Source of the DNA: Iodidimonas nitroreducens
Lineage (GTDB): Bacteria > Pseudomonadota > Alphaproteobacteria > Sphingomonadales > Rhodothalassiaceae
Length of the DNA stretch: 44,281 bases
Direction: 5' to 3'
NCBI GenBank assembly: GCA_000710935.1
Contig: BAYV01000022.1
Coordinates: forward strand, 1-44,281
Below the pieces are notes generated by a model, which had not been told where the DNA came from, did no database searches, and saw only the letters and a list, made by a program, of their open reading frames with translations. Positions within the stretch are counted from its first letter, which is position 1. The number at the start of each line of letters is the position of its first letter. Position numbers and translations under genes: made by a program. Positions 1,280 to 16,678 of the stretch are shown here, piece after piece.

Positions 1280-3220
1280 TCACATGCCCCATTGCACGCT
1301 TTTATCATTGGATCGGCTCAACACCCGATAGCGCGACAGCGCCCAGATCGGGAAATAATGACTATAGCCATGATAGCGCAGATAAAAAACCCGGGGAAAG
1401 CCAACGGCATTATACCAGGGTTCTTCCCAACGGCCATCCTTGGTGCGGGGATGATCCAAAAGCCAGCCAATGCCGCGGGCAACGCAGGCATCTTCGGTTT
1501 CACCAGCAGCCATCAGACCCAAAAGGGCCCATGATGTTTGGGACGGTGTGCTGGGCGCGGGATCGCGTTTTTTATCATTATAATAGCTATCGCCCGATTC
1601 ACCCCAGCCGCCATCGGGATTTTGCCGGGCTTTCAGCCACTCCACGGCTTTGCGCACATAAGGTGCGGTCATATCCTCGCCCACGGCATTGAGCGCCGCC
1701 AGAACCGACCATGTGCCATAGATATAATTGGTGCCCCAGCGCCCATACCAGCAGCCATCATCTTCTTGCAGCTTTTTGAGATAGGCCACACCGCGCGCCA
1801 CGGCTTCATGGTTTTGATCATGGCCAAGCTGGCCCAAAAAGCTGAGGCAGCGGGCCGAAACATCCTCGGTCGGCGGATCGAGCAGGGCCCCATGATCGGC
1901 AAAGGGAATGTGATTGAGATAATGGTCATCATTATCGATATCGAACGCGCCCCAGCCGCCATTGCTGCTTTGCATGCCGATGATCCATTCTTCGGCGCGA
2001 TCAATGGCCTCCTTATAGTTTGGATCTTGAGTGCGATGCAAAGCCATGGCCACCACGGCGGTATCATCCACATCGGGATAATGATCATTATTATATTGAA
2101 AAGCCCAGCCGCCGGGGCGCAGATCGGGGGCCTTCAGCGCCCAATCGCCCTTCACATCCAGAATCTGTTTGGAGGTCAGCCAATCGCCTGCCGCTTTCAC
2201 GGTTTCACCCGCCGGGGCTTCCCCGGATTCGAGGAGGGCATGAAGGCTCAGGCTGGTATCCCAGATCGGCGACAGGCAAGGCTGTACAAAGCTTTCGCCT
2301 TCGCCATCTGTTACCAGCAGACGGATCGATTTTTTGGCGGTGACCAGGGCTTCATGATCCTTGGGATAGCCCAAAGCCTCCATCGCCATCACCGAATTGG
2401 CCATGGCGGGGAAGATCGCCCCCAAACCATCCTCGGCATTCAGCCGTTCGGTAAAAAAACCAAGCGCCCGCTCGATGGCTTTGCGGCGGGTTTTGGCGGG
2501 GAAATGCGGCTCCAGCTTTTGCAGAATTTTATCAAGCTGCAAAAAGGCCTTGCCGGTCCAGCGCCCGGTGGGGTTCTGCTGCCAATCCCTGATCAATTCC
2601 GGGGGGATGATAAATAATTCCCGGATATGGGTATCGGTGGGATTGATGGCCCGGGGCTTTAAGGCAGCCAAAATCAGCAAGGGCGCGATCACTGTGCGCG
2701 ACCAATAGGAAAAACGCCACATATTGGCGGGAAACCAGCGCGGCATCAGCATCAGTTCCACCGGCATCACCGGCACCGCACGCCATGGCACTTCGCCAAA
2801 CAAGGCAAGGGCATAGCGGGTGAACACATTGGTTTTTTCGGCCCCGCCCAGGTTTTTGATCAGCGCCCGCGCTTTTTTCATATGCGGCGCATCGGGATCA
2901 TCGCCGGTGAGCTTCAGGGCGAAATAAGCCTTGACGCTGGCGGAAATATCCGGCGCCCCCCCATGATAAAGCGGCCAGCCCCCGCCATCTTGCTGAATCG
3001 ATCGGATATAGCGCGCCAGCTTTCGTTCCAGTTCGGGCTCGCGTTCATCCAGAAAATGATTGAGAAAGATATATTCCGCCGGAATCGTGGCGTCGGCCTC
3101 CAGATCGAAAACCAGATGCCCATCTTTTTGCTGACGGGTTTTGAGCGCGGTCAGGGCATCGTCGATCACCTGATCGAGGCGATCATCCACGGCCACTTGT
3201 TTTAATGCTTCACCCCTCAC
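1280..3220 (-). CDS. shc: Squalene-hopene cyclase
   Basis: A 646-residue cyclase that converts squalene to hopene and hopanol at the inner membrane. The catalytic acid motif is DVDD at residues 383-386 followed by T387, as in the family DXDDTA motif. Repeated QW-type motifs are visible, for example GGWGAFDIDN, the conserved WYGRWGTNYIYGTW stretch and NPDGGWGES. The length fits bacterial SHCs (about 630-680). It begins with GTG, and this start overlaps the hpnE stop by four bases (GTGA), so translation is probably coupled. It is the fifth gene of the hopanoid operon. Confidence 0.97.
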   Translation of the reverse strand: MRGEALKQVAVDDRLDQVIDDALTALKTRQQKDGHLVFDLEADATIPAEYIFLNHFLDEREPELERKLARYIRSIQQDGGGWPLYHGGAPDISASVKAYFALKLTGDDPDAPHMKKARALIKNLGGAEKTNVFTRYALALFGEVPWRAVPVMPVELMLMPRWFPANMWRFSYWSRTVIAPLLILAALKPRAINPTDTHIRELFIIPPELIRDWQQNPTGRWTGKAFLQLDKILQKLEPHFPAKTRRKAIERALGFFTERLNAEDGLGAIFPAMANSVMAMEALGYPKDHEALVTAKKSIRLLVTDGEGESFVQPCLSPIWDTSLSLHALLESGEAPAGETVKAAGDWLTSKQILDVKGDWALKAPDLRPGGWAFQYNNDHYPDVDDTAVVAMALHRTQDPNYKEAIDRAEEWIIGMQSSNGGWGAFDIDNDDHYLNHIPFADHGALLDPPTEDVSARCLSFLGQLGHDQNHEAVARGVAYLKKLQEDDGCWYGRWGTNYIYGTWSVLAALNAVGEDMTAPYVRKAVEWLKARQNPDGGWGESGDSYYNDKKRDPAPSTPSQTSWALLGLMAAGETEDACVARGIGWLLDHPRTKDGRWEEPWYNAVGFPRVFYLRYHGYSHYFPIWALSRYRVLSRSNDKSVQWGM

Positions 3221-4611
3221 GTCGATCTTACTCCGCTTTGGATTTCAGTTGATGGCTGATGGCCCGATCCTGCACTATATCTATGTTGGTTATTTAAGGG
3301 CGGTTTGTGCTGTTGAAAAGCCCGACTTTTCTGAAGGCATATATGGGCCGCTTTATGGCCCGAGCGAATGGCCCCTTCGATGGTCGATGGCAGGCCGGTG
3401 GCCGTCCAGTCTCCGGCCAGTATCAGATTGGCCCATTGCGTGGCGGCTTTCGGGCGCAAAGCCTCGGCTTCGGGGCTGGCAGCAAAGGTTGCCCGCTTTT
3501 CCTTGATCACCCGAAAGGGCGGCAGGGGCTGATCGCCGAGCTGCAAGGCCCGGCTCACTTCACCCCAGCAGATCCGGGCGATCTCATCGGCGGGCCTGCG
3601 GGCAACCGCATTGGCCGCTGAAATGGTGACGGAGGCAAGTTCATCGCGCAGGAAAATCCACTGGGAAAGCCCGCCCACAAGGCCGATGATTTCGACCGAT
3701 GCACCATCCTGCTCCGGATGGACCGCCTTTGCGGGGAGCCGGAAATGGATATTAACGATGGCCTCGCCATCGGGCGGGGTGGAAAGATCGGGCAGCAAGG
3801 TGCGGGCAATTGGGGCGGGGGTGGCGCAGATCGCCTGATCCTCGGCCCCGAGCGGGATCAGCTCATCCCCAAGAGAGAGGGCCTGAAGCCGCCCATCAGC
3901 CAGATCAAGGCGATTGATGCGGCTGTGGAAGCGAATGGTGGCACCGGCTTTTTGCAGCTTTTCCAGGGCCGGATCGATCAGGCAATGGGCAAGGCTCAGG
4001 CGCGCCATGCGGGGCTGGCAATAGGCACCGCCACGGGCAAAGCTTTCGCGTAAAACCCGGCGCAAAAGATGAGCCGAGCCGTCTGCCGGGGCGCAATTCA
4101 ACACCGCCACCACCAAAGGTTCCCACAAGCGGCGATACAGGGGATGGTTGACCGACAGGCGATCGGTGATGCATTCAGACTTGCGCGCCATCAAAAGGCT
4201 GAGAGCCGAAAGATAATCGCGCGGCCGGCTGCCCGGAATCCGTCGCTTGCGATCAAAAACCCAGCCCTGCCAAAGCCCTTTATCAAGGGCGAAGGTCCAG
4301 CGTTCACCGCTTTCGAGATCGAAAAAGGGAAAGCGCGCTTCGTTGGGTCCGATCAGTTGATCCATCGCCCCGCTGATCGGATCGCGCCCGCCGATCTCAT
4401 CGAGATAGGCATGCAAGGATCGATTGCCCGAAAGCATCAGATGATTGCCATTATCGATCAAAAGCCCAAGCTGCTCATCATGAAACGAGCGGCAGCGCCC
4501 CCCGGCCCGGGCAGCGGCTTCATAAAGGGTGATCTGATGCCCGTTATCAATCAGACGAACGGCCGCCGCCAGCCCCGCTAAGCCGGCACCGATTATGTGG
4601 ATATGCGCCAT
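3217..4611 (-). CDS. hpnE: Hydroxysqualene dehydroxylase HpnE
   Basis: An FAD-dependent amine-oxidase-like protein of 464 residues that reduces hydroxysqualene to squalene. The dinucleotide-binding motif GAGLAGLAAAVRL is at the N-terminus (residues 8-20), followed by an acidic strand end (YEAAARAGGRC). The C-terminal FAD segment LAGDWTATGLPSTIEGAIRSG is typical of the phytoene-desaturase/HpnE group. I chose the ATG at 4611 (MAHIHIIGAG) because it puts the Rossmann strand at the very N-terminus; the open frame extends to 4647. It overlaps hpnD by 19 bases and shc by four. The C-terminal about 30 residues look unstructured. Confidence 0.93.
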   Translation of the reverse strand: MAHIHIIGAGLAGLAAAVRLIDNGHQITLYEAAARAGGRCRSFHDEQLGLLIDNGNHLMLSGNRSLHAYLDEIGGRDPISGAMDQLIGPNEARFPFFDLESGERWTFALDKGLWQGWVFDRKRRIPGSRPRDYLSALSLLMARKSECITDRLSVNHPLYRRLWEPLVVAVLNCAPADGSAHLLRRVLRESFARGGAYCQPRMARLSLAHCLIDPALEKLQKAGATIRFHSRINRLDLADGRLQALSLGDELIPLGAEDQAICATPAPIARTLLPDLSTPPDGEAIVNIHFRLPAKAVHPEQDGASVEIIGLVGGLSQWIFLRDELASVTISAANAVARRPADEIARICWGEVSRALQLGDQPLPPFRVIKEKRATFAASPEAEALRPKAATQWANLILAGDWTATGLPSTIEGAIRSGHKAAHICLQKSRAFQQHKPPLNNQHRYSAGSGHQPSTEIQSGVRST

Positions 4612-5498
4612 GATCGGCCTCCCAAGGCGATTTTGGCGGCGATCCACAGCTTTTCGCCTTTGCTCATCAGGGGGCCGAAACCGGATCGGTGCGGGGCCTT
4701 GAACCCTTTATCGCGCATCCGCAGGAAGATCTGGTGATACACATGCATCATGATCGCCGCCGGGCGCAGATCGCCTTCATGGCACGCCTTGAGCGCTTGC
4801 CGGGCGGCGTTGAATTCCGCCTCGGCTTGTTTGGCCAAAGCCTGCCGGGCCAAAGGAAGGCCGGGCGCATGGGCAACGGTTTGAGGGTCGGTGTCATGAA
4901 TCCCGGCTTCAATCAGCAGATCGCGGGGCAGATAAAGCCGCCCCATATCCGCATCTTCTTCCACATCGCGAATGATATTGGTCAGTTGCAGGGCCTTGCC
5001 CAGATGATCCGACAAACGCCGCCCTTCGGCTTCGGGGGCCCCGAAAACCCGCACGCATAGCCGCCCCACAGCGGATGCCACGCAATCGCAATAATCGATA
5101 AGCTGATCATAAGATGGCGCCCGGATCGGCCCTTCAGCATCCATTTCCATGCCCCGGATCACGGCGGTGAAATCGTCTTTTAAAAGCCCGAACCCGCCGA
5201 TGGCGGCCAGAAGCTGGCGATCAAGGGGATCATCGCCCGCCTTGCCATCATAAAGCCCATCAATGTGCTGGCGCCAATCCTTCAGCGCGGCGATCTTTTC
5301 GGTACCCAAAAGCGGACCATCGGCAATATCATCCACATCCCGGCAAAAGGCATAGATGGCAAAAAGCGCGGCGCGGCGCTCTGCCGACATCAGGCGCATC
5401 GCCCAATAAAAAGATGATCCGGCGGCCCGCACCTGTTGGGCCAGCCGCCGCCGATCTTCCTCTATGCTTGCCTGTGCTTTCGGTGTCACGGTGCTCAT
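4593..5498 (-). CDS. hpnD: Presqualene diphosphate synthase HpnD
   Basis: A trans-isoprenyl diphosphate synthase of 301 residues that condenses two farnesyl diphosphates to presqualene diphosphate. Both aspartate-rich motifs are present: DVDDIAD in the first third and IIRDVEEDADMGRLYLP in the middle. The ATG at 5498 (MSTVTPK) is preferred over a TTG at 5531. Neighbours hpnB and hpnE in the same direction support the HpnD rather than phytoene-synthase assignment; there are no carotenoid genes in the window. Confidence 0.94.
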   Translation of the reverse strand: MSTVTPKAQASIEEDRRRLAQQVRAAGSSFYWAMRLMSAERRAALFAIYAFCRDVDDIADGPLLGTEKIAALKDWRQHIDGLYDGKAGDDPLDRQLLAAIGGFGLLKDDFTAVIRGMEMDAEGPIRAPSYDQLIDYCDCVASAVGRLCVRVFGAPEAEGRRLSDHLGKALQLTNIIRDVEEDADMGRLYLPRDLLIEAGIHDTDPQTVAHAPGLPLARQALAKQAEAEFNAARQALKACHEGDLRPAAIMMHVYHQIFLRMRDKGFKAPHRSGFGPLMSKGEKLWIAAKIALGGRSWRIST

Positions 5499-5553
5499 GG
5501 CTTCATGTTGATCCTGCCCAGACCAAGGCAATTATCCCGTGCGGCTTTGGCAA

Positions 5554-6750
5554 TCAAGGCCCGCCATCCGATTTATGGCTATCTAAGGTGCCATGGCGAT
5601 CATAATCGCGCCCCTTCCACTGGCTGCCCTTGCCCCGCCAATGATCAAGGGCGGAATGGATCGTCATCATTGCATAAAGCCCGGCAATCAGCCAAAGGCC
5701 GATAGCTTCCAAGGGGTTGCGCCGATAATCGCGCAAGGTGGGGCGATAGGCAATGATCATCAAAAGCCAGCTTACCACCCCGCTCAGCAGCAGATCGGGC
5801 CGCCCGGTCACAATCCCGACAACTGTGGCGATGGGGGCCAGCAGAAACACCATGGCAAGGCCCAAAATCGTGCCAAGCAATAAAAATGACGAGAAATGTA
5901 ATTGGCTGAAGGCGGTGCGTTTTACCATCATCCATAAAGGCTTCAAACCATCCGCACCGCGCAAAGAGCGGCTGTCATCCGCCAGCCCCAGCCATAATCG
6001 CCCGCCCGCATCGCGAATTTTGGCGGCCAGCGTGCAATCATCGATCAGCGCCCCACGCAGGGCAGCCAATCCCCCGATCTGATCGAGCCGATGGCGGCGA
6101 ACGAGAATGCAGCCCCCCGCAGCCCCTGCGGTTTTTTGGCTGGGATTATTGATGGCGGGAAAGGGATAAAGCATCTGGAAGAAAAAAATGAAGGCCGGGA
6201 TCAGCCAGCCTTCCCAGAAGCCTTCGGTGCGCAGCCGGATCATCAGGGAAACGAGATCGCGATCATCGCTTTCGGCCTTCTGTACCAGCCGGGCCAGCAC
6301 ATCGGGGCCATGTTCGGCATCGGCATCGGTGAGCCAGAAATAGCGGGCCTTGTCGCCTGCTTTGGCCACCCCATGGGATAAAGCCCATAATTTCCCGGTC
6401 CAGCCCTTGGCCAGTGGCGGTGCGCTGAGGATCGTGAGGGACCGGCCCGTGGCACATTCATCGGCGGCTTTCTGTGCCAAAGCGGCGGTGCCATCCCGGC
6501 TGCCATCATCCACCAGAATGACCCGAAAATCCCCCTCATAGCGCTGATTGAGCAGGCTTTTGATCGCACGCGCGATGCTTTGGGCCTCATCGCGCGCCGG
6601 GATGATGGCCACAATCGGGGGCAGATTGTTTAAAGGCGCGCCTGTATTTTGGGGCAGGCGCTGATCGGCACGCCAAAAGCCATGATGGCCAAATACCAGA
6701 TAAGCCCAGGCCAACAGGCTGATCAGCGATAAAATGAGGAGGAGTTCCAT
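5554..6750 (-). CDS. hpnB: Hopanoid-associated glycosyltransferase HpnB
   Basis: A 398-residue family 2 glycosyltransferase with an N-terminal membrane helix, a GT-A domain (VAIIPARDEAQSIARAI; VDDGSRDGT; the acidic LTDADAEHGPD) and several C-terminal membrane segments. HpnB proteins are encoded with hopanoid genes; their exact reaction is not settled. The start ATG shares one base with the hpnC stop (TGATG), so the two are translationally coupled. The position between hpnC and hpnD is different from the common hpnC-hpnD-hpnE order. Confidence 0.9.
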   Translation of the reverse strand: MELLLILSLISLLAWAYLVFGHHGFWRADQRLPQNTGAPLNNLPPIVAIIPARDEAQSIARAIKSLLNQRYEGDFRVILVDDGSRDGTAALAQKAADECATGRSLTILSAPPLAKGWTGKLWALSHGVAKAGDKARYFWLTDADAEHGPDVLARLVQKAESDDRDLVSLMIRLRTEGFWEGWLIPAFIFFFQMLYPFPAINNPSQKTAGAAGGCILVRRHRLDQIGGLAALRGALIDDCTLAAKIRDAGGRLWLGLADDSRSLRGADGLKPLWMMVKRTAFSQLHFSSFLLLGTILGLAMVFLLAPIATVVGIVTGRPDLLLSGVVSWLLMIIAYRPTLRDYRRNPLEAIGLWLIAGLYAMMTIHSALDHWRGKGSQWKGRDYDRHGTLDSHKSDGGP

Positions 6751-7739
6751 CAGCTTCTGGGCTTTTTGGGTAAAGGCTTTTCGGGGCGCGAGACAAGGGT
6801 GGAGAGCAGCCCGCCACCGGCTGCCATGGCGATTTGCCAGCGGCTGAGTTTGATCCGCTCGGCCAAAGGATCGCGCCGGGCAAGCTCGGTGGTCAGCGAC
6901 CGGGCGATATTGTGGATCACCGCCGATTCTGCGGCCAGCCTGCGGCTTTGCAGGGCTTTGGGCAGGCGCGCTGCCTGATCATTTAGTTCATGAACGCTTT
7001 CGATCAGGCGGTCGATCACCGCGCGCAAAGCCGGGCTCGTTTTCGCCCTGCCCAGATCCGTATCCACCGCACCCGCTTCGCGCAGATCGCTTTGGGGCAG
7101 ATAGATGCGGTTCATCTGATGATAATCATCGCCGCAATCCTGCAGATGATTGATGATCTGCAAGCTGTTGCACAAAGCATCGCTGATCGGCCAGAAGGCC
7201 TGATCTTCGCCATGCAGATCCAGCAGATAGCGGCCCACGGGTGCGGCGGATCGATTACAATAATCGATCAGATCATCAAAGCTTTCATAGCGATTTTGCA
7301 CGGCATCCTGTTTGAAAGCGGAAATGAGATCGAGACAATGGCGCACCGACACCCCGGTTTCCTCGAGGCTTTCATGAAGGCGCCGGGCGGTGAGGGGGGC
7401 CTCATCCAAGGCCTCGCCCATGACCGTGGCGGCGAAAATATCGAGCCGGGCGCATTTGTCTTCGGGGGCGAGATCGGGATTATCGGCGATATCGTCGATT
7501 GCCCGGGCAAAGGCATAAAAACGCCCCACATGGGGCCGCAAATGCGCCGCAATGAGCCGCGATCCCACGGGAAAATTCTCGGTCTCCGCCGATTTTCCCG
7601 ATGGGGTTTCCAAAGAGGGTGTTTCCGATGACGGCGTTTCCCGAGGGTGGCCATTTGCGGGGGCTGCCGCCTTGTTATTTTCTGTCATCGCGCACCGATC
7701 ATTTTCCGTTATGCTTGACCTTTGATTGTTCGATGCCAT
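6750..7739 (-). CDS. hpnC: Hydroxysqualene synthase HpnC
   Basis: A 329-residue squalene/phytoene-synthase-fold enzyme that converts presqualene diphosphate to hydroxysqualene. Family signatures are ENFPVGSRL, YAFARAIDDIAD (first Asp-rich motif) and INHLQDCGDDYHQMNRIYLP (second). It is longer than usual (about 280-290) because of a roughly 45-residue N-terminal extension containing three ETPS-type repeats and other polar residues. The ATG at 7739 has a GGCGG ribosome site; GTG at 7754 and ATG at 7688 are alternatives. It is the first gene of the hopanoid operon and is divergent from the LOG gene across about 60 bases, where the promoters must lie. Confidence 0.92.
   Translation of the reverse strand: MASNNQRSSITENDRCAMTENNKAAAPANGHPRETPSSETPSLETPSGKSAETENFPVGSRLIAAHLRPHVGRFYAFARAIDDIADNPDLAPEDKCARLDIFAATVMGEALDEAPLTARRLHESLEETGVSVRHCLDLISAFKQDAVQNRYESFDDLIDYCNRSAAPVGRYLLDLHGEDQAFWPISDALCNSLQIINHLQDCGDDYHQMNRIYLPQSDLREAGAVDTDLGRAKTSPALRAVIDRLIESVHELNDQAARLPKALQSRRLAAESAVIHNIARSLTTELARRDPLAERIKLSRWQIAMAAGGGLLSTLVSRPEKPLPKKPRS
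7596..7640. repeat. 15-base in-frame tandem repeat in hpnC
   Basis: Three imperfect copies (7596-7610, 7611-7625, 7626-7640) read on the minus strand as ETPSS, ETPSL and ETPSG. They sit in the non-conserved N-terminal extension of HpnC, ahead of the catalytic domain. Confidence 0.85.
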
Positions 7740-7798
7740 GAAATCCGCCCGCACTCAATGCCCCATGCGCCATAGGGGCGATCATTGAAAGCCAAGCC

Positions 7799-9389: not shown

Positions 9390-9674
9390 GGGTCTTGCTC
9401 CTTGATGGTCGGCGCGATTTTTCAAATCCATCCGGTTCAGAGATTTTTGCCTCTCCCCAAACCGGATTGTAGATGGGGTTTCATCAAGCGCTTTGCCAGA
9501 GTGGGGGGCTTGATGCTGGCGTCAATTTTTGGTTACTGATCGCAGGCCATAGGCCTTCAATCAGCGATATGTTGGGGGGTTTAGCATCGCCTTGTGACAA
9601 GAAAGCGGCAATGCGATGCCAGTTTCACGACAAAAGTTTTTTACTTATTTTTCTTGGCTAAAGGACGCGCGCCA

Positions 9675-10133
9675 ATGGTTCATGCCACAATTTTGAAATT
9701 CGGATATCCGCAAAGCCTTGTGCGAAGCTATGATCATTGGATGGTGCAACTTCGTCCCAAACAGGCAACTCTTGGCGCTTTGGTGGTCATCGCGAAGGAG
9801 GAAGCCACGGCCTTTTCCGCCTTGTCGCAAGCGGCAGCGGCTGAATTTCATCAGGTAGTGTGCGATGTGGAGCAGGTGCTGGGGCAGGTTTTTGACTATC
9901 AAAAGATCAATTGGCTGATGCTGATGATGGTTGATCCCCATGTGCATTTTCATGTCTTGCCGCGCTATGATGGCCCCCGATCATGGGGTGGCCATGGGTT
10001 CACCGATCCCGGTTGGCCGGGCTTGCCCGATCTTTCCCATGATCAGCCCGGCGATGGGGCCATTCATCACAGCCTGATGGCCGCATTGTGTGCGGCTTTT
10101 TCTGGCCATCAGGCATCGGATGCGCCATCCTGA
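9675..10133 (+). CDS. HIT family protein
   Basis: A 152-residue histidine-triad nucleotide-binding protein. The catalytic motif HVHFHVLPR fits H-x-H-x-H-x-x. HIT hydrolases cleave nucleotide phosphoramidates, dinucleoside polyphosphates or nucleotide-linked alcohols. I start it at the ATG at 9675 (AAGGA upstream) and not at 9594, because the extra 27 residues are not HIT-like. It lies upstream of a locus rich in nucleotide-activated alcohol enzymes, separated by about 100 bases of tandem repeat; a functional link is possible but unproven. Confidence 0.88.
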   Translation: MVHATILKFGYPQSLVRSYDHWMVQLRPKQATLGALVVIAKEEATAFSALSQAAAAEFHQVVCDVEQVLGQVFDYQKINWLMLMMVDPHVHFHVLPRYDGPRSWGGHGFTDPGWPGLPDLSHDQPGDGAIHHSLMAALCAAFSGHQASDAPS

Positions 10134-10235: not shown

Positions 10236-11132
10236 ATGGACGCCTTTATGCCTCCCTTGTCCTATCGCGCGCTGATCCTTTCGGGCCGCCGATCCTCTGG
10301 TGATCCCGTAGCCGATGCGGAAAAGGTGAGCAGCAAGGCCTTTGCCCATGTGGGCGGCAGGCCCATGATCGATCATGTGATCAGGGCGGTTGAAGGATCG
10401 GGCCGCATGGCGGATATCCAGATCAGCCTGCCCCAGGATTGCCCGATCGAAAGGGAAGCTCCCGGCCTTGCGGCGCGGCTCGCCAGGGGGGAGTTGTTGC
10501 GCCATCAATCAAAAGAGGGGCCGAGCGGCAGCGTTCTCTCGGTTTTGCAAGCGATGAAGCCCGGCGAACGGCTGTTTGTCACCACCGCCGATCATCCGCT
10601 TTTGACCAGTGATCTGGTCTGCCGCTTTTTGGATGAGGCCGATAAGCTGGATGCCGATATTGCTGCGGCTTTGGCCCCCCTCGATGTGGTGAAGGCGGCA
10701 CGTGAAGCCGATCCCGCCGATCTTCCCCCGCGCCGGGGCCGCCGCACCCGGCTGGCCTTCAAGGACGGTGTTTTTTCCGGCTGCAATATGTTTGCCCTGA
10801 AAGCCCCTGCCGCCGAGCGGGGCATTGCCCTGTGGCAGCGTATCGAACATGATCGCAAAAAGCCGGTGCGGCTGGTGGCGCGTTTGGGGGTTTGGGGCTT
10901 GCTTAATTGGCTGGCCGGGCGGTTGACCCTGGCCGATGCGCTGGGGCGTCTTGGTCGTCGGGTGGATCTGCTGGCAATGCCGGTGATCATGCGCGATGCC
11001 GATGCCGCCACCGATATCGATAGCCTTGATGATCTGGCCATGGTGCGGGCGGTTTTCGCCCGCCAAAAAGCGCGGGCCGCAAGCCCTTCAATCGATTCCT
11101 CTTCAATCGATGCCCACCCAATCAATTCCTGA
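10236..11132 (+). CDS. MobA-like nucleotidyltransferase, possible alcohol-phosphate cytidylyltransferase
   Basis: A 298-residue GT-A-fold NTP transferase. The N-terminal nucleotide loop reads ALILSGRRSSGDP and is degenerate compared with the usual LAGGxSxRMG. A KAFAHVGGRPMIDHVI segment supplies the lysine and the metal-site acid is in TTADHP at about residue 115. The C-terminal third (with IMRDADAATDIDSLDDL) resembles MobA/IspD-type ends. Given a CDP-alcohol phosphatidyltransferase nearby it may make a CDP- or NDP-activated alcohol; that is inference. The start is uncertain: ATG at 10248 has better GGA spacing. The last 45 bases are a 15-base tandem repeat. It converges on the next gene with only eight bases between stop codons. 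Confidence 0.65.
   Translation: MDAFMPPLSYRALILSGRRSSGDPVADAEKVSSKAFAHVGGRPMIDHVIRAVEGSGRMADIQISLPQDCPIEREAPGLAARLARGELLRHQSKEGPSGSVLSVLQAMKPGERLFVTTADHPLLTSDLVCRFLDEADKLDADIAAALAPLDVVKAAREADPADLPPRRGRRTRLAFKDGVFSGCNMFALKAPAAERGIALWQRIEHDRKKPVRLVARLGVWGLLNWLAGRLTLADALGRLGRRVDLLAMPVIMRDADAATDIDSLDDLAMVRAVFARQKARAASPSIDSSSIDAHPINS
11088..11132. repeat. 15-base in-frame tandem repeat at gene end
   Basis: Three imperfect copies (11088-11102, 11103-11117, 11118-11132) encode SIDSS, SIDAH and PINS plus the stop codon. The repeat array ends exactly with the TGA of the nucleotidyltransferase. Confidence 0.8.
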
Positions 11133-11140
11133 CCCTAAAC

Positions 11141-11944
11141 TCAGGATGCTTTGGCCTGCAGGGCTTTGATCCGGCTGCGGTCAAAGTCAGCATGGCTCCA
11201 AAGCGAGATGGCTGTGCGGGCTTTTTGCAGGTCTACCGGAAAATCCACCTCGCACCAATCTTGTGAGGGCACATCGGCAATATGTATGGCCTGCGTATGG
11301 GCGAGGCGATCAATCACCGAAAGATACCATAGCCGATCGCCTTCACCGCTCTCGATGATGCGTTCCACCGCCTCGCGAAACAGCGAAACCCCTGATTTCA
11401 TGAAGCGGATCATGCCGATGGATTCGGCATCCACCGCCTTCACATCCAATGTTTTCCCGATCCGGCGCAAAAGATTTTTGTGCAAAATGACCTTCATGTC
11501 ATCGGTATCATAGCGATCCTTGCGCGATGTGGTGAGGGTGATCGGCTGATCGGGCCGGGCCATCAGGCTGCGGGCCACCGGCGCACGAAACAGGGTATCG
11601 CCATTGAGCAGGATGAAATCCTCGGTCATTTCATCACGGGCACACCACACACTGCGCAAATTATCGGAACTGGCATAATCGGGATTATGGATTGCGCGAA
11701 TGGAAAAGGCGGGATCGCCGGATTGATGGCGCGCTGCGATGAAATCGGCGATTTCACGCTCCACCTTCTCTGCCTTGAAGCCGGTCACCACCACGATGTC
11801 ATTGATCCCGGTTTCCAGCAATTGCGCTAATTGCCAGCCAAGAAGAGAAATGCCGCCGCCCAGATTGAGCAGGCATTTCGGCGTATGTTCGGTAAAGGGC
11901 GACAGGCGTTTGCCCTGACCCGCACTGAGAATGATAGCTTTCAC
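11141..11944 (-). CDS. LicC-like sugar/choline-phosphate nucleotidyltransferase
   Basis: A 267-residue nucleotidyltransferase. The N-terminal signature AIILSAGQGKRLSPFTEHTPKCLL is the intact nucleotide-binding loop with the activating lysine, and LLNGDTLF is the metal-site motif (FILLNGDTLFRAP). It resembles the phosphocholine cytidylyltransferase (LicC) group more than glucose-1-phosphate thymidylyltransferases, because of its short length and the absence of a C-terminal left-handed helix domain. It would make CDP-choline, CDP-ethanolamine or a related CDP-alcohol. It is read on the minus strand, tail-to-tail with the other nucleotidyltransferase. Substrate not determinable here. Confidence 0.75.
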   Translation of the reverse strand: MKAIILSAGQGKRLSPFTEHTPKCLLNLGGGISLLGWQLAQLLETGINDIVVVTGFKAEKVEREIADFIAARHQSGDPAFSIRAIHNPDYASSDNLRSVWCARDEMTEDFILLNGDTLFRAPVARSLMARPDQPITLTTSRKDRYDTDDMKVILHKNLLRRIGKTLDVKAVDAESIGMIRFMKSGVSLFREAVERIIESGEGDRLWYLSVIDRLAHTQAIHIADVPSQDWCEVDFPVDLQKARTAISLWSHADFDRSRIKALQAKAS

Positions 11945-12092
11945 GGCAATCCTGTTCTTTTATAAGAGCGGCGATCCATAGGAAACTTTATGACCATTTC
12001 ATGACATTTACGACAAGTCGGCCCGGTTCGACAACTCATAGAACCGTGAAACTTGTGATATCAATCCGTGATCTCAAGCCGCAAATAAACTT

Positions 12093-12968
12093 CTAACGCG
12101 GAGCATTGGAGGGAAAAAAGGCTTTTTTTATGGCGTCATAATGGCGATTTTCCACGTTGATCCCATCAGATTTGGCGGTGGGATCGATGGTCAGGCGGTA
12201 ATAATGCCCCGGGCCCTTATGCGAGCCGATGGATGACGATGACCCGCAGCCCAAAATCGGCACCGGACCATCGGGGCCTTTGATGCTGGCCTTTAAAGCC
12301 CGATGGGTATGGCCATGAAGGATCAGCCCCGCCCCCGTGCGGGCAATCAGTGCGCGAAAGGCTTTGGCATCGCTCAGCGCCTTGCGCGGGCTTTCCGCTC
12401 CGGGCTGGGGCGGATGATGGATCATGATCAGGGTGAACTGGCCTGCCTGATGCTCGGCATTCAGCAGGGCTTCCAAAGCCATCATCTGTTTTTCCCCTAA
12501 TCGCCCACTGGCCATGGCAGGCAGAGTGGCCACCGCCGACGAAGTGCCGATGATCGATAGTTTGCCCCGGCGGCGCAGATAGGGAAAGTCCATCCGGCCA
12601 TCATCTCCGGTCATCCATTCGGCCCATTTCGGCAGACCCTTTTCCAAGGCGCCAGCCACATAAGCATCATGATTGCCGGGGATGATGCTGATATGATCGG
12701 CAGGGCCCGCCCGCAAAAGCCAGCGTCGCGCGGTTTCAAATTCACCCCCAAGGGCAATATTGGTGAGATCCCCGGTCACGCAGATATGATCGGGTTGATC
12801 GGCTTTAAGGTCGTTTAATAAGGCCTCCAGAACCTCGGCGCGATGTTCGTGCTTGCGCTTTCTATGCCATGAAAGATATCCAAGAATGCGCTTGCTGATC
12901 AGCTTTTGTGCCGCCACTTTGGGCAAGGGTGCAAAATGCAGATCGGATAGATGGGCGATGGTGATCAT
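12093..12968 (-). CDS. Calcineurin-like metallophosphoesterase
   Basis: A 291-residue dinuclear-metal phosphoesterase with all family motifs in order: DLH near the N-terminus (HLSDLHF), GDLTN, GNHD, HHPPQPG and HGHTH. The ATG at 12968 starts the first strand directly (MITIAHLSDLHF); a longer reading from 13061 would run into the divergent CDP-alcohol phosphatidyltransferase gene. It is probably cytosolic, with no signal peptide. In this neighbourhood it could remove a phosphate from a phospholipid head-group intermediate or hydrolyse a CDP-alcohol; the sequence alone does not say. Confidence 0.85.
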   Translation of the reverse strand: MITIAHLSDLHFAPLPKVAAQKLISKRILGYLSWHRKRKHEHRAEVLEALLNDLKADQPDHICVTGDLTNIALGGEFETARRWLLRAGPADHISIIPGNHDAYVAGALEKGLPKWAEWMTGDDGRMDFPYLRRRGKLSIIGTSSAVATLPAMASGRLGEKQMMALEALLNAEHQAGQFTLIMIHHPPQPGAESPRKALSDAKAFRALIARTGAGLILHGHTHRALKASIKGPDGPVPILGCGSSSSIGSHKGPGHYYRLTIDPTAKSDGINVENRHYDAIKKAFFPSNAPR

Positions 12969-13001
12969 GGCTGAGGGTTCATTCCGGGCTAATCGAATAA
13001 G

Positions 13002-14264
13002 ATGGGCGCATTGAACAAGATGACGGCGAAGATCGGGCCGCCAGGAACAGACGAAGGACATAAGAGTTTGACGACCGAAGACAAAACCCCGATCACCCTT
13101 GATTTTGTGCCTGCCCGATCCCCTGTCAAGCTGTTTGGTTTGAGCGGACGCGAGCGGATCATGAAGATGATCAAAGATCGCCGGGCCGATGGCGTGGTGA
13201 TAGGGGCGGATGATCCGCAGGCCGCATCCTCAGGCGATTGGCTGATCATGGATGAAGATTGCCTTTATGATGGCCCGGTGATCGATTGGCTTTTGGCCGG
13301 GCCTGATCGGGCGGTTGATGCCGATGGCGCGCGCGCCGGGCGCGTCAGTTCAAAAGGCGAGCAACAAGATGCCGTGCGGGCCTGGATAAAGGGCGCGGGC
13401 AGCCTGCCCGAAGGTATTGATCTTGCCAGCCCGGACAGCATCGGAGCGGCCTATCGCACGGCCCTGCGCAAGCGTGAAACCCCTTATTGCCTGCGAATAT
13501 CGGCCATTGGTCGGGAAAAGGCGGAGCAGCGCCTGTTTGCCGGTTCCTATAAAGGGGTGACTGATTTTGTCACCAAATATGTCTGGCCATGGCCGGCTTT
13601 TCATCTCACCCGGCTTTGTGCCGCCCTTAAAATCAGCCCCAATATGGTCACAAGCCTTAGCCTTGTTTTGGTGCTGGCGGCCTTCTGGTTTTTTTGGCAG
13701 GGCGATTTTGCGTCCGGCCTGTTGGCAGCCTGGGGGATGACCTTTCTTGATACCGTTGATGGCAAGCTGGCCCGCACCACCCTCACCTCATCGAAATGGG
13801 GGAATATTTTTGATCATGGGATTGATCTGGTGCATCCGCCCTTCTGGTATTGGTCCTGGGCGCATGGTTTGAGCAGTGGATTGGAGGCAGGCGTGGGCCC
13901 GGGGTCGTCCGCCTCATGGCTGGGCTTGTCATCGCTGGATTGGGCGCTTTGGGTGATCCTTGTGGGCTATGTTGCCGGGCGCTTGATGGAAGGGTATTTC
14001 ATCGCCCGCTTCAAGCTGGAACTGCATATCTGGCGGCGGTTTGATAGCTTTTTCCGGCTCATCGTTTCGCGTCGCAATCCCAATCTCATCCTCCTTAGCC
14101 TTGGGCTTTTGCTTGGTGATCCGGCGGCCGGTTTTTTATGGGTGGCGCTGTGGACCATCGCAAGCCTTGCGGTGCATGGGGTGCAGATTGTCCAGGCCGA
14201 ACGGGCGGCGCGGAATCACCCCTTATCCTCCTGGCTCGATGGGGCCTTGAGGCAGGATTCTTGA
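13002..14264 (+). CDS. CDP-alcohol phosphatidyltransferase with unassigned N-terminal domain
   Basis: A 420-residue protein. The C-terminal half is a CDP-alcohol phosphatidyltransferase: its motif fits D-x2-DG-x2-AR-x8-G-x3-D-x3-D exactly, with D250, D253, G254, A257, R258, G267, D271 and D275, and membrane helices lie on both sides. Such enzymes transfer a phosphoalcohol from a CDP-linked donor. The first about 180 residues are soluble and I cannot name the domain (it has WLIMDEDCLYD at 80-90, like the strand of a degenerate nucleotidyltransferase). A two-part arrangement is known in archaeal bifunctional inositol-phosphate cytidylyltransferase/DIPP synthase. The start has a weak ribosome site; a TTG at 13067 is an alternative. 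The gene abuts the following one. Confidence 0.85.
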   Translation: MGALNKMTAKIGPPGTDEGHKSLTTEDKTPITLDFVPARSPVKLFGLSGRERIMKMIKDRRADGVVIGADDPQAASSGDWLIMDEDCLYDGPVIDWLLAGPDRAVDADGARAGRVSSKGEQQDAVRAWIKGAGSLPEGIDLASPDSIGAAYRTALRKRETPYCLRISAIGREKAEQRLFAGSYKGVTDFVTKYVWPWPAFHLTRLCAALKISPNMVTSLSLVLVLAAFWFFWQGDFASGLLAAWGMTFLDTVDGKLARTTLTSSKWGNIFDHGIDLVHPPFWYWSWAHGLSSGLEAGVGPGSSASWLGLSSLDWALWVILVGYVAGRLMEGYFIARFKLELHIWRRFDSFFRLIVSRRNPNLILLSLGLLLGDPAAGFLWVALWTIASLAVHGVQIVQAERAARNHPLSSWLDGALRQDS

Positions 14265-15407
14265 GTGATGCGCATCGGTTTTTTATTCAATCATTATGCG
14301 GGCCATCAGCTTTTGCACGCCGCCCCCACCGCCTTTGCGCTATCGCGTTTTTATCCCCGGCACCGGGTTTTCATGTTCGTGCGCGGCAAGGCTTTGGCCG
14401 ATCTGGCAGACAAGATCGCCCAGCGCTATCCCGGCCATCGCGTCGAGATCACGATCATTGATGCGCCCCTGATTGCGCGCCTCGCCGATCCCCTGATCCG
14501 GCCATTTGCCTTTGCCGGAAAGCAGGCGGCGCTGGAGGCCAATCTCGATCTGTTTCAGCCTCTCGATGTGCTGGTGGTGCCTGAAAAAACCAGCCTCAGC
14601 CTGAAGCGCCATCAAAAACTTGCCCATCTCAAATTCGTTTATACCCATCATGGGGCAGGGGATCGGGCGGATGCCTATTACCCCCAATTGGCGGATTTCG
14701 ATCTGGTTCTCGCCCCGGGTCGAAAGATCGCGGACCGCCTGATCAGTTCGGGTTTGGTGAAGGCGGAAAACTGCGCCATCGTCGGCTATCCAAAATTTTC
14801 CGTGCGGCAGTCTTTGGGGGTCACGCCGCCCGCCTTTGCGCAAAAGCGGATCACCGTGCTTTATAATCCGCATTATAGCCGCCGCGAATCCTCATGGGCG
14901 CCATGGGGGCGGGATATCCTTGATTTTTTCCGTCAATCAGATCGCTATAATCTGATTTTCGCACCGCATATCCTGCTGTATCAGCGCTGGCTGCGGCATC
15001 GGGCCCGGCCTTTGGGGCGCTGGCGGGGGCAATCGCACATGCATCTTGATACCGGCAGCGATGCGATGATCGATATGACCTATCTGGATGCGGCGGATCT
15101 TTATCTGGGGGATGTGAGCAGCCAGATCTATGAATTTCTTCTTCGCCCCCGACCGGCGGTTTTTCTTGATCCCCGTGCGATTGCGGCATGGCATAGGGAT
15201 GAAAGCTTTGTTATGTGGCAGGCGGGGGACGTGGTGACCCATCTTGCCGATCTGCCCAATGCCCTTGCTCAGGCCCATGATCGCCATGCACGCTATGAAG
15301 CCGCGCAGCGCCGGTTATTTGAGGAAACTTTTGATCATGGTGATCAACCCGATGAAGAACGCGCGGCACAGGCCATTGTGGCGCATTTTACAAAGAAAAG
15401 CCCCTGA
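14265..15407 (+). CDS. CDP-glycerol glycerophosphotransferase-like protein
   Basis: A 380-residue GT-B-like protein similar to TagB/TagF. Supporting segments are FVYTHHGAGDR near residue 125, TVLYNPHYSRRES near 200, and DLYLGDVSSQIYEFLLRP near 282-300, the last matching the family's nucleotide-binding D-x-SS-x-x-E-F-L segment. TagF-type enzymes transfer glycerol phosphate from CDP-glycerol to a lipid-linked acceptor in Gram-positive teichoic acid synthesis. In a Gram-negative it would decorate another polyol-phosphate lipid or polymer. The GTG start directly follows the previous stop (ATG at 14268 is equally possible), so the two are one unit. Confidence 0.75.
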   Translation: MMRIGFLFNHYAGHQLLHAAPTAFALSRFYPRHRVFMFVRGKALADLADKIAQRYPGHRVEITIIDAPLIARLADPLIRPFAFAGKQAALEANLDLFQPLDVLVVPEKTSLSLKRHQKLAHLKFVYTHHGAGDRADAYYPQLADFDLVLAPGRKIADRLISSGLVKAENCAIVGYPKFSVRQSLGVTPPAFAQKRITVLYNPHYSRRESSWAPWGRDILDFFRQSDRYNLIFAPHILLYQRWLRHRARPLGRWRGQSHMHLDTGSDAMIDMTYLDAADLYLGDVSSQIYEFLLRPRPAVFLDPRAIAAWHRDESFVMWQAGDVVTHLADLPNALAQAHDRHARYEAAQRRLFEETFDHGDQPDEERAAQAIVAHFTKKSP

Positions 15408-15434
15408 TCGGGGGTGGCGGGAAAAAGGATAAAG

Positions 15435-16262
15435 ATGATGCTTCCAGATCATAACCCCCGGAAAAAGCCCTTGCGCCTGATGGATATTGGCCCGGCTGTT
15501 TTTGCGCAGATTCGCGGCCATGCCGAAGCTTTTGTGCTGTTTGTGGTATTATGGGCGGTGCTCAGCACCATCGTGGCTTCGCCCATGATGGCCGATCTCG
15601 CTTTATGGCAAAAAACCATGGAAACCGATCAGGAAGCGGGGATGGCGATGCTGTCTGATCTTGCCCCGAAACTGATCGTGCAATCGGGGGTGAGCCTGTT
15701 TCTGGCGGTAATCATTCCGGTTTTATGGAGCCGCCTGCTGCTGATGGGGCGGGGCATGGTTTTATCGAAAGGCCTGCTGGCGGCTTATGGCAAGGCCCTG
15801 ATCCGCACGGCGGCGCTTTTGGGCTATCAGTTTCTGGTGGTCATCGGCCTGCTCATCGCCTCGATTCTGGTGATGGCGGTGGCGGGGCTTTTAGGCCTTG
15901 GCGAAGGGGCGGCTTCCACCTTGATGGTGATGCTGGTGGTGGCCGGGATGCTGCCGGTTTATCTGGCTTATTGCCTGTCGGTGGTGGCAGTCTCGGTAGG
16001 GGCTGCGGATGGCGGGATCGCGGGCTCTTTCAAACGGATGAAAGCGTACTGGAAACCCTATGTGGCGCTGTCGGTGATCGTGCCTTTGGGCTTGTCCCTG
16101 CTGGGTGGGGTGATCAGCATTCCGCTGATCGGCGAAGATGGCACGCCGGGGCGGTTGGCCCTTTTGGTGGGGGCGGTGTTCAATGGCATCAGCCTGCTGT
16201 TCATCTTTACGGCGGCGGTGGTGCTTCATCGCCATGATCATGCCGATCCCCTTGCCGACTGA
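15435..16262 (+). CDS. Multi-pass membrane protein of unknown function
   Basis: A 275-residue protein with about six hydrophobic segments (around residues 30-50, 80-100, 125-150, 155-180, 205-230 and 235-255) and a His/Asp-rich C-terminal tail (HRHDHADPLAD). I do not recognise a family motif. The ATG at 15435 is preceded by AAGGAT, better than a GTG at 15414. It follows the glycerophosphotransferase-like gene closely and its stop overlaps the Nudix start by one base, so it is probably co-transcribed and might act in export or anchoring of the product. Confidence 0.7.
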   Translation: MMLPDHNPRKKPLRLMDIGPAVFAQIRGHAEAFVLFVVLWAVLSTIVASPMMADLALWQKTMETDQEAGMAMLSDLAPKLIVQSGVSLFLAVIIPVLWSRLLLMGRGMVLSKGLLAAYGKALIRTAALLGYQFLVVIGLLIASILVMAVAGLLGLGEGAASTLMVMLVVAGMLPVYLAYCLSVVAVSVGAADGGIAGSFKRMKAYWKPYVALSVIVPLGLSLLGGVISIPLIGEDGTPGRLALLVGAVFNGISLLFIFTAAVVLHRHDHADPLAD

Positions 16263-16678
16263 TGGCGACCTTAAAGCGCCCGCTGATCGGCATTGGCGTC
16301 GTGGTTTTGAAAGAGGATTGCGTGCTTTTGATCCGCCGGGGCAAGCCCCCCAAGGCCGGGGAATGGAGCCTGCCCGGTGGCGCGCAGGAATGGGGCGAAA
16401 CCACCCATGAAGCCGCCCGGCGCGAGGTTTATGAAGAAACCGGCATCGAGATCGAGATTATCGGGCTTTTGGATGTCGTCGATGGCCTGATGCCCGATGG
16501 TAAAGGGGATTACGCCTTTCATTATACGCTGATCGATTATCATGGGCGCTGGATGGCCGGCACCCCGAAGGCCGCCAGCGATGCTGCGGATGCCGCTTGG
16601 GTCAGGCTCGATCATCTGGATGATTATGGCTTATGGGATGAAACGCGGCGGGTGATTGCGCTGGCGCAAAAAGCCTGA
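16262..16678 (+). CDS. Nudix hydrolase
   Basis: A 138-residue Nudix protein. The Nudix box is complete: GAQEWGETTHEAAR followed by REVYEETGI, fitting G-x5-E-x7-REU-x-EE-x-G-U. Related small Nudix enzymes hydrolyse ADP-ribose, NDP-sugars or other nucleoside diphosphates linked to another moiety. Its ATG uses the last base of the membrane protein's stop (TGATG). In this locus a CDP-alcohol is a conceivable substrate, but this is inference. Confidence 0.9.
   Translation: MATLKRPLIGIGVVVLKEDCVLLIRRGKPPKAGEWSLPGGAQEWGETTHEAARREVYEETGIEIEIIGLLDVVDGLMPDGKGDYAFHYTLIDYHGRWMAGTPKAASDAADAAWVRLDHLDDYGLWDETRRVIALAQKA

Follow-up and report, generated by a model that had tools for sequence, protein, structure and literature searches.

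What is a protein resembling teichoic acid polymerases doing directly beside a lipid phosphotransferase in a Gram-negative bacterium? The question is raised by positions 10,236 to 16,678 of contig BAYV01000022.1 from Iodidimonas nitroreducens (assembly GCA_000710935.1), a stretch of 44,281 nucleotides that we call the window and that is contig C87 in its entirety, from a genome of 3.08 Mb (108 contigs; 98.7% complete). Very likely, the head-group half of the pathway for ceramide phosphoglycerate (CPG) and ceramide diphosphoglycerate (CPG2) is encoded here, with the ceramide genes and the homologues of CpgB and CpgC on a second contig (C99); one gene of the window, here termed E, may encode an accessory transferase. 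The pathway itself is already known, from Caulobacter; what is new is the E family as a candidate member.

Gene content of the locus

An initial annotation made from the sequence alone described seven genes in this block (A to G), and all seven reading frames are found where it placed them. The domain type or membrane character that it claimed holds for six; E by itself gives a sub-threshold match to PF04464. The features are as follows (values are profile E-values; CDP and CTP, cytidine di- and triphosphate).

9594-10133, plus strand: HIT-domain protein (PF01230, 7.3e-6), homologue of the gene at the CC_1157 position
10236-11132, plus strand: A, MobA/CofC-like nucleotidyltransferase, CC_1153 homologue (NTP_transf_3, 1.1e-14)
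11141-11944, minus strand: B, probable CTP:phosphoglycerate cytidylyltransferase, CpgD (CC_1152) homologue (NTP_transferase, 1.9e-11)
12093-13061, minus strand: C, metallophosphoesterase, CC_1158 homologue (calcineurin-like phosphoesterase PF00149, 1.2e-15)
13002-14264, plus strand: D, CpgA (CC_1159) orthologue (CDP-OH_P_transf, 7.1e-9)
14265-15407, plus strand: E, TagF-like (GT-B fold) putative CDP-polyol phosphotransferase of the CC_1167 family, directly 3′ of D
15414-16262, plus strand: F, six hydrophobic segments by hydropathy, no Pfam family above cut-off
16262-16678, plus strand: G, Nudix hydrolase (NUDIX, 3.3e-21)

The Pfam matches thus bear out the two nucleotidyltransferases, the metallophosphoesterase, the CDP-alcohol transferase and the Nudix protein of the initial annotation, and the hydrophobic segments of F its multi-pass membrane protein. 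The direct coupling of E to D that it noted is also real: D stops at 14264 and E starts at 14265 (GTG) or 14268 (ATG). The annotated 5′-ends of C and D overlap at 13002-13061, and both starts have probably been called too long; for D this rests on residues 1-26, where the predicted local distance difference test (pLDDT) score is under 50, while the true start of C probably lies near 12968 (MITIAHLSDLHF). The HIT gene just upstream belongs to the set. A scan for promoters and terminators gave results near chance.

Relationship to the Caulobacter CPG2 locus

In Caulobacter the region CC_1152-CC_1168 makes CPG and CPG2 (PMC11324152, PMC12275187, PMC13228409, PMC10331486; these papers are cited here and below for those portions of their text that treat the genes in question). 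For comparison we used the locus of C. vibrioides DSM 9893 (L103), in which the published cpgD forward primer matches the start of one open reading frame (ORF) exactly; five other published primers have no exact match in L103, DSM 9893 is not the reference strain, and CC numbers were assigned to its genes by gene order. That ORF, CpgD/CC_1152, is 45.5% identical to B over 246 amino acids. Identities of the others are 36% for A (CC_1153), 54% for the HIT protein (CC_1157 homologue), 44% for C (CC_1158), 47% over 375 amino acids for D (CpgA/CC_1159) and 38% over 373 amino acids for E (the gene at the CC_1167 position). Sequence comparison thus pairs A, B, C and D with CC_1153, CpgD, CC_1158 and CpgA as homologues in matching gene context. 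The window shares with the Caulobacter locus homologues of all six and a divergent C/D pair, and its genome also contains Spt, CpgB and CpgC. It differs in that the gene set is split over two contigs, E directly follows cpgA whereas the Caulobacter E-family gene lies beside the CC_1166 flippase, and F comes after E. A flippase homologue was looked for in the window and in L052, L156 and L167, not in the remainder of the genome, and none was found.

The pathway is consequently not the undescribed one of the initial annotation, since Caulobacter mutants have been used to study the homologues of A, B, C and D, and enzymology and crystal structures are available for that of B as well. The chemistry it guessed, in which nucleotide-activated head groups are attached to a lipid and extended by phosphodiester transfer, is nonetheless close to the published CPG2 model.

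Scanning named genomes with the D-family alignment gave at least 596 stretches and at least 559 relatives, of which the best 80, ranked by similarity to D, were taken as named loci; many come from related Caulobacter and some end at contig ends. Within about 10 kb (and with the stretch of C99 from the window organism, L052, subtracted) these loci contain HIT in 68 instances, C in 67, CpgC in 67, A in 65, CpgB in 61, B in 56, Spt in 51, E in 22, F in 2 and G in 2. Because the same families recur together in most of the 80 loci, the grouping exceeds chance. The figure for the HIT gene stands alongside the statement, in the portion of PMC11324152 concerned, that CC_1157 is ‘probably unrelated’ and lacks high cofitness.

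Ceramide genes elsewhere in the genome

BLAST with the reference set detected no ceramide gene on the window contig. On C99, Spt lies at 15191-16369 (model NF047599, 618 bits against a cut-off of 500), beside a CpgB-like gene at 13189-14142 (profile match 3.2e-72) and a CpgC-like gene at 14221-15174 (9.0e-93). Homologues of CerS, CerR and the acyl-AMP ligase lie beside Spt in the same stretch, together with an ORF that resembles an acyl carrier protein (ACP) by its DSL motif only. The genome thus has the known gene set, though distributed between two contigs. LptF/G-like genes (24-28% identity), which may be either the LptF2/LptG2 export pair or the housekeeping pair, are found beside cpgB on C99.

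CpgC carries an InterPro CDP-diacylglycerol-synthase domain (PMC11324152). The Tam41 profile matches one of ten members of the CpgC family (5.5e-5), and the CpgC profile found one weak match in the PDB (0.046). Separately, a gene of the fatty-acid hydroxylase family (4993-5841 in L036, and homologues) stands next to cerS in 16 of the 80 named loci and was not found in L103; its product may hydroxylate the ceramide.

Probable head-group enzymes: homologues of CpgD and CpgA

Thirteen residues are named in the CpgD papers (PMC12275187, PMC13228409), of which 11 are identical in B (G12, R16, K26, N90, N110, G111, D112, M147, K161, S170 and W201); the other two, T88 and T93, are Ser. On this evidence B is a probable CTP:phosphoglycerate cytidylyltransferase, that is, CpgD.

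D comprises a cytidylyltransferase-like domain (residues about 31-165) and the membrane core of a CDP-alcohol phosphotransferase. Enzymes of the latter kind carry the signature D-x2-D-G-x2-A-R-x8-G-x3-D-x3-D; in D and its relatives residues D250, D253, G254, A257, R258, G267, D271 and D275 are invariant in 17 sequences and have the spacing of the signature. The model of D (mean pLDDT 84) superposes on Archaeoglobus AF2299 with Z 22.5, a root-mean-square deviation (rmsd) of 3.5 and 317 residues aligned. The extra domain that the initial annotation saw in this protein is placed as the cytidylyltransferase-like domain of AF2299, and D shows the same two-domain arrangement as AF2299 and the IPCT-DIPPS enzymes (4o6m, 4q7c, 4mnd). 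In contrast to these, its N-terminal domain, read by eye, lacks the usual nucleotidyltransferase start, G-x-G-x-R...K; its likely substrate is glycerate-based, and cytidylyltransferase activity would reside in another protein of the window, B. A phylogenetic tree separates 13 CpgA-position proteins, including D, from 15 paralogues at 100/100. A second group of CDP-alcohol phosphotransferases (13615-14826 in L033, 6975-8189 in L043, 5028-6410 in L038 and others), 34-41% identical to D in the loci that were compared, forms a clade of its own; in 10 of the 80 named loci it lies between LptF/G-like genes and a fatty-acid hydroxylase gene or cerS. Members of this group may make a further head-group variant.

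The among-genome analysis used a class sample of 289 alphaproteobacterial genomes and a phylum-wide sample of 369. Weak D matches (G007, G016, G184 and G210 in the class sample; G366, G399, G407 and G430 in the phylum sample), one weak E match (G265, class sample) and a partial A match in G205 (4.9e-20) were dropped. In the class sample strong D occurs in 20 genomes (24 with weak matches), CpgC in 34 and Spt in 40 at an E-value of at most 1e-140 (39 above the bit-score cut-off, the fortieth, G246, falling just below it). All 20 strong-D genomes, which span 15 families, have both Spt and CpgC. CpgD and A were searched for in the 41 class-sample genomes with Spt or E: strong CpgD (E-value below 1e-80) is present in 20 of the 20 D-positive genomes and in none of the 21 that are D-negative. 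This co-occurrence agrees with the proposed use of CDP-glycerate by CpgA. Fisher values calculated for the overlaps take no account of relatedness among the genomes. Taking the 80 named loci and the 289 genomes together, the genes do recur with one another elsewhere, a check that the initial annotation had proposed.

The step at which A acts

Among the same 41 genomes A (E-value below 1e-40) is present in 32 of the 34 that are CpgC-positive; the seven CpgC-negative genomes give no match at 1e-15. As for the two CpgC-positive genomes without strong A, G205 has the partial match and the other, G071, is 82% complete. The distribution of A follows that of CpgC, and D and B follow each other. This sits uneasily with the placing of CC_1153 solely in the conversion of CPG to CPG2. 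The CC_1153 mutant has lost CPG2 and accumulates CPG, which favours the published placing; ceramide is also much raised (PMC11324152). A second, distant copy of A is present in the Iodidimonas genome (32538-33335 on C92; L167), with no other gene of the reference set in the surrounding 14 kb.

E, a TagF-like protein

The initial annotation called E a TagB/TagF-like transferase. Its match to PF04464 (0.018, about 14.4 bits) does not reach the cut-off of 22.1, for which reason we call it TagF-like and not a TagF; family-level matches and the best PDB match of its model, TagF, support the likeness. PF04464 is matched at an E-value of at most 1 by 18 of 23 members of the E family (best 6.8e-8), and a glycosyltransferase model by two, weakly. 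Used singly as a phmmer query against the PDB, E returned one chance-level match (0.077); the profile of the family has as its best sequence match the TagF-like polymerase Cps3D (0.0057), with aligned segments YNPH/YAPTW, FAPH/FRGHH and DLYLGDVSSQ.YEF/DLLITDYSSIIYDF.

The model of E (mean pLDDT 86) finds TagF as its best fold match in the PDB (Foldseek 2.6e-13; Z 23.8, rmsd 4.0, 324 aligned). The GT-B model agrees with TagF (3l7i-3l7m) over the whole of E, but identity is 14% and only residues 353-723 of TagF are matched. E further differs from TagF and Cps3D (8qoy) in its position beside a ceramide pathway in a Gram-negative, and in falling below the PF04464 cut-off. Three histidines are invariant (H128, H202 and H234) and could, by analogy with TagF, be catalytic. 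A CDP-linked donor is the natural reading of the fold and the sequence matches. That this donor is always the CDP-glycerate made by CpgD was considered and rejected: G091 and G256 have E and no CpgD match, so the donor of E may differ.

Strict orthology of E with CC_1167 was also rejected, on two grounds. The window protein and its L103 counterpart fall on different branches of the E tree, and we therefore treat them as homologues. Moreover, two copies of E occur in G610 (L165/L166) and in Panacagrimonas (L093), at least one of them within a cpg locus, which suggests two subfamilies.

Distribution and neighbourhood of E

In the class sample strong E is found in nine genomes (ten with one weak match) from six families; seven of the nine have D, eight have Spt and eight have CpgC. 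The phylum sample contains E in eight genomes, strong D in ten and both in four; three of these genomes (G000, G256 and G037) belong to the class sample as well. Nine of the 22 named loci with E look Caulobacter-like.

The position of E within the loci varies. It follows cpgA in the window and in L055 and L056, two relatives in which the genes likewise adjoin; it lies beside the flippase gene in Caulobacter and L058, between cpgC and spt in L062, L063 and L065, and near cpgD in L099 and L100. In two genomes of the same order as the window organism the arrangement is the reverse of that in the window: in G481 E comes first and, with the ORFs as called, overlaps D by 4 bases, and in G548 about 50 bases separate the end of E from the D match that follows it. 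Three genomes that have no D match (G516, G565 and G605) carry E near A; G516 and G605 also have a flippase homologue there, and G605 has LptF/G-like genes besides.

In the two samples combined, 10 of the 15 E-bearing genomes (G000, G175, G202, G271, G481, G516, G548, G565, G605 and G610) have pathway genes no more than 10 kb from E, the chance rate of such linkage being assumed to be 1-5%. The link in G565 is to A alone, and that in G610 is for one of the two copies. E is not linked in G058, G091, G230, G256 and G275; this is weaker for G091 and G230, whose neighbourhoods end at contig ends (L151, 12.1 kb; L155, 14.4 kb). A distant Spt-family match (32%) near E in G058 (L153) was left out of the linkage, the Spt of that genome being on another contig. 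The E tree mixes linked and unlinked copies, which cluster no more strongly than shuffled labels (the G548 row is unsure and has a very long branch), and linkage would thus have been gained or lost several times.

In those parts of PMC11324152 that deal with it, CC_1167 is termed ‘probably unrelated’, yet its cofitness is 0.57 with spt and 0.54 with CC_1159. Among the matches listed from the open-licence literature, only that paper treats CC_1167 on topic; nothing was found for CCNA_01225 (a number that we assumed), and nothing was seen by way of CDP-glycerate.

Proposed pathway and alternatives

The lipid built is most likely a ceramide, and homology, conserved residues and co-occurrence together suggest that the organism makes CPG2. 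Spt, CerR, CerS and the acyl-AMP ligase, with an ACP, would make dihydroceramide, which CpgB would phosphorylate, an activity demonstrated for Caulobacter CpgB. CpgC, perhaps with A, would turn ceramide-1-phosphate into CPG; given the weak likeness of CpgC to CTP:phosphatidate cytidylyltransferases of the Tam41 type, a CDP-ceramide intermediate is plausible. B would convert CTP and 2-phosphoglycerate into CDP-glycerate, as shown for Caulobacter CpgD and as its residues lead us to expect here, and D would use CDP-glycerate to add the second phosphoglycerate, as the published hypothesis for CpgA holds. C may act on an intermediate; the Caulobacter CC_1158 mutant is reported to have a slight effect only. 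E, finally, would take phosphoglycerate or a phospho-polyol from a CDP-linked donor and transfer it to the head group of the ceramide, before the lipid is exported. That E is such an accessory TagF-like transferase, acting on the ceramide head group, has in our estimate about an even chance. The fuller proposal, in which E is an unrecognised phosphosphingolipid enzyme that extends or caps the head group by using a CDP-linked glycerate or polyol, and A acts in the first head-group step and not solely between CPG and CPG2, is put forward tentatively, as somewhat short of even.

Several observations weigh against this interpretation. The E. coli control, like Caulobacter vibrioides, scores above the cut-off of model NF047599, and Spt alone is therefore no proof of ceramide; BLAST identity to the L036 proteins is low for CpgB (26%) and CpgC (34%), despite strong profile E-values; and weak matches to the CpgD profile occur in two D-negative genomes (G246, 3.7e-21; G123, 8.9e-16). 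Reports on Iodidimonas lipids list, in the portions that concern polar lipids, phosphatidylethanolamine, phosphatidylglycerol, diphosphatidylglycerol and unidentified aminolipids, and name no sphingolipid. For E in particular, 13 of the 20 strong-D genomes lack it, the two genomes that carry it without CpgD (G091 and G256) lack CpgA also, and PMC11324152, in the part that bears on this, expects CPG2 in three species without CC_1167. UDP-N-acetylglucosamine (UDP-GlcNAc; UDP, uridine diphosphate) 2-epimerases, moreover, come one Z unit behind TagF as fold matches to E (22.8 against 23.8).

The roles of D and E might instead be exchanged: CpgC would make CDP-ceramide, D would condense it with glycerate or phosphoglycerate, in the manner of phosphatidylinositol-phosphate synthases with CDP-diacylglycerol, and E would be the user of CDP-glycerate that adds the second unit, as TagF does with CDP-glycerol. 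The Tam41-like member of the CpgC family, the presence of phosphatidylinositol-phosphate synthases among the near folds of D, and the adjacency of E and D in both gene orders fit this scheme, and CpgD acting with a TagF-like enzyme would parallel the TagD/TagF pair, to which the CpgD authors draw an analogy (PMC12275187). The genetics described in the same paper, however, put CpgA and CpgD in the step from CPG to CPG2 and not in the making of CPG, and the strict pairing of strong CpgA with strong CpgD in genomes that mostly lack E is against it as well. We consider the exchange unlikely.

Equally unlikely in our view is that E is a sugar transferase, or another GT-B enzyme of surface glycans, that merely travels near the locus. 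UDP-GlcNAc 2-epimerases and glycosyltransferases do score close behind TagF, E lies between glycosyltransferases in G256 and among housekeeping genes in G091, and 17 of the 22 named E loci contain a Wzx-like flippase. Against this stand the preponderance of PF04464 over glycosyltransferase matches in the E family, Cps3D as the best PDB sequence match of its profile, the linkage of E to cpg genes in distant lineages, and the cofitness of the CC_1167 mutant with spt and CC_1159 (PMC11324152).

The suggestion of the initial annotation that the cluster makes a polyol-phosphate surface polymer, or a glycerophospholipid unrelated to ceramide, is permitted by domain composition alone and by a window contig devoid of ceramide genes, but the presence of Spt, CpgB and CpgC in the genome, their tracking of D (Spt and CpgC in every strong-D genome) and the retention of CpgD substrate residues in B leave the surface polymer unsupported and the suggestion as a whole very improbable.

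Flanking genes

The seven genes of the initial annotation do not stand as one pathway: A to D are homologues of CPG2 genes, but membership of F is doubtful and G is probably not part of the pathway. F directly follows E only in L055 and L056 (35-40% identity), the two closest named relatives among the best 80. G was considered as a member and rejected, as it is not adjacent in these loci, where gaps of about 0.8 and 1.5 kb lie between F and G.

Positions 1280-7754, immediately before the lipid block, are occupied by the hopanoid genes shc, hpnE, hpnD, hpnB and hpnC, and an hpnC homologue holds the same place in L055 and L056. Of the named relatives among the matches listed, Iodidimonas muriae has the closest D (65%), and flanking gene order is kept there.

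Implications

Taken together, the analyses give good support to a new occurrence of an already known pathway, to which the E family and the placing of A are added as testable ideas. CPG2 is an anionic sphingolipid on which the viability of Caulobacter without lipopolysaccharide partly depends, and in the portions of PMC12275187 that treat the head-group genes biochemical function is given only for CpgB and CpgD; elsewhere the possible need for another, as yet unknown, transferase is raised (PMC11324152). The remark in the initial annotation that a teichoic-acid-type transferase stands beside a phospholipid synthase proved useful here, since the 2024 paper (PMC11324152) had, in its treatment of these genes, set that family aside. 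The CC_1167 family is thus a previously set-aside candidate for the pathway, and the distribution of A argues for re-placing CC_1153. CPG-type sphingolipids are predicted in Iodidimonas-like bacteria, and, if the proposal for E is true, chain-building chemistry would be common to the sphingolipids of Gram-negatives and the teichoic acids of Gram-positives.

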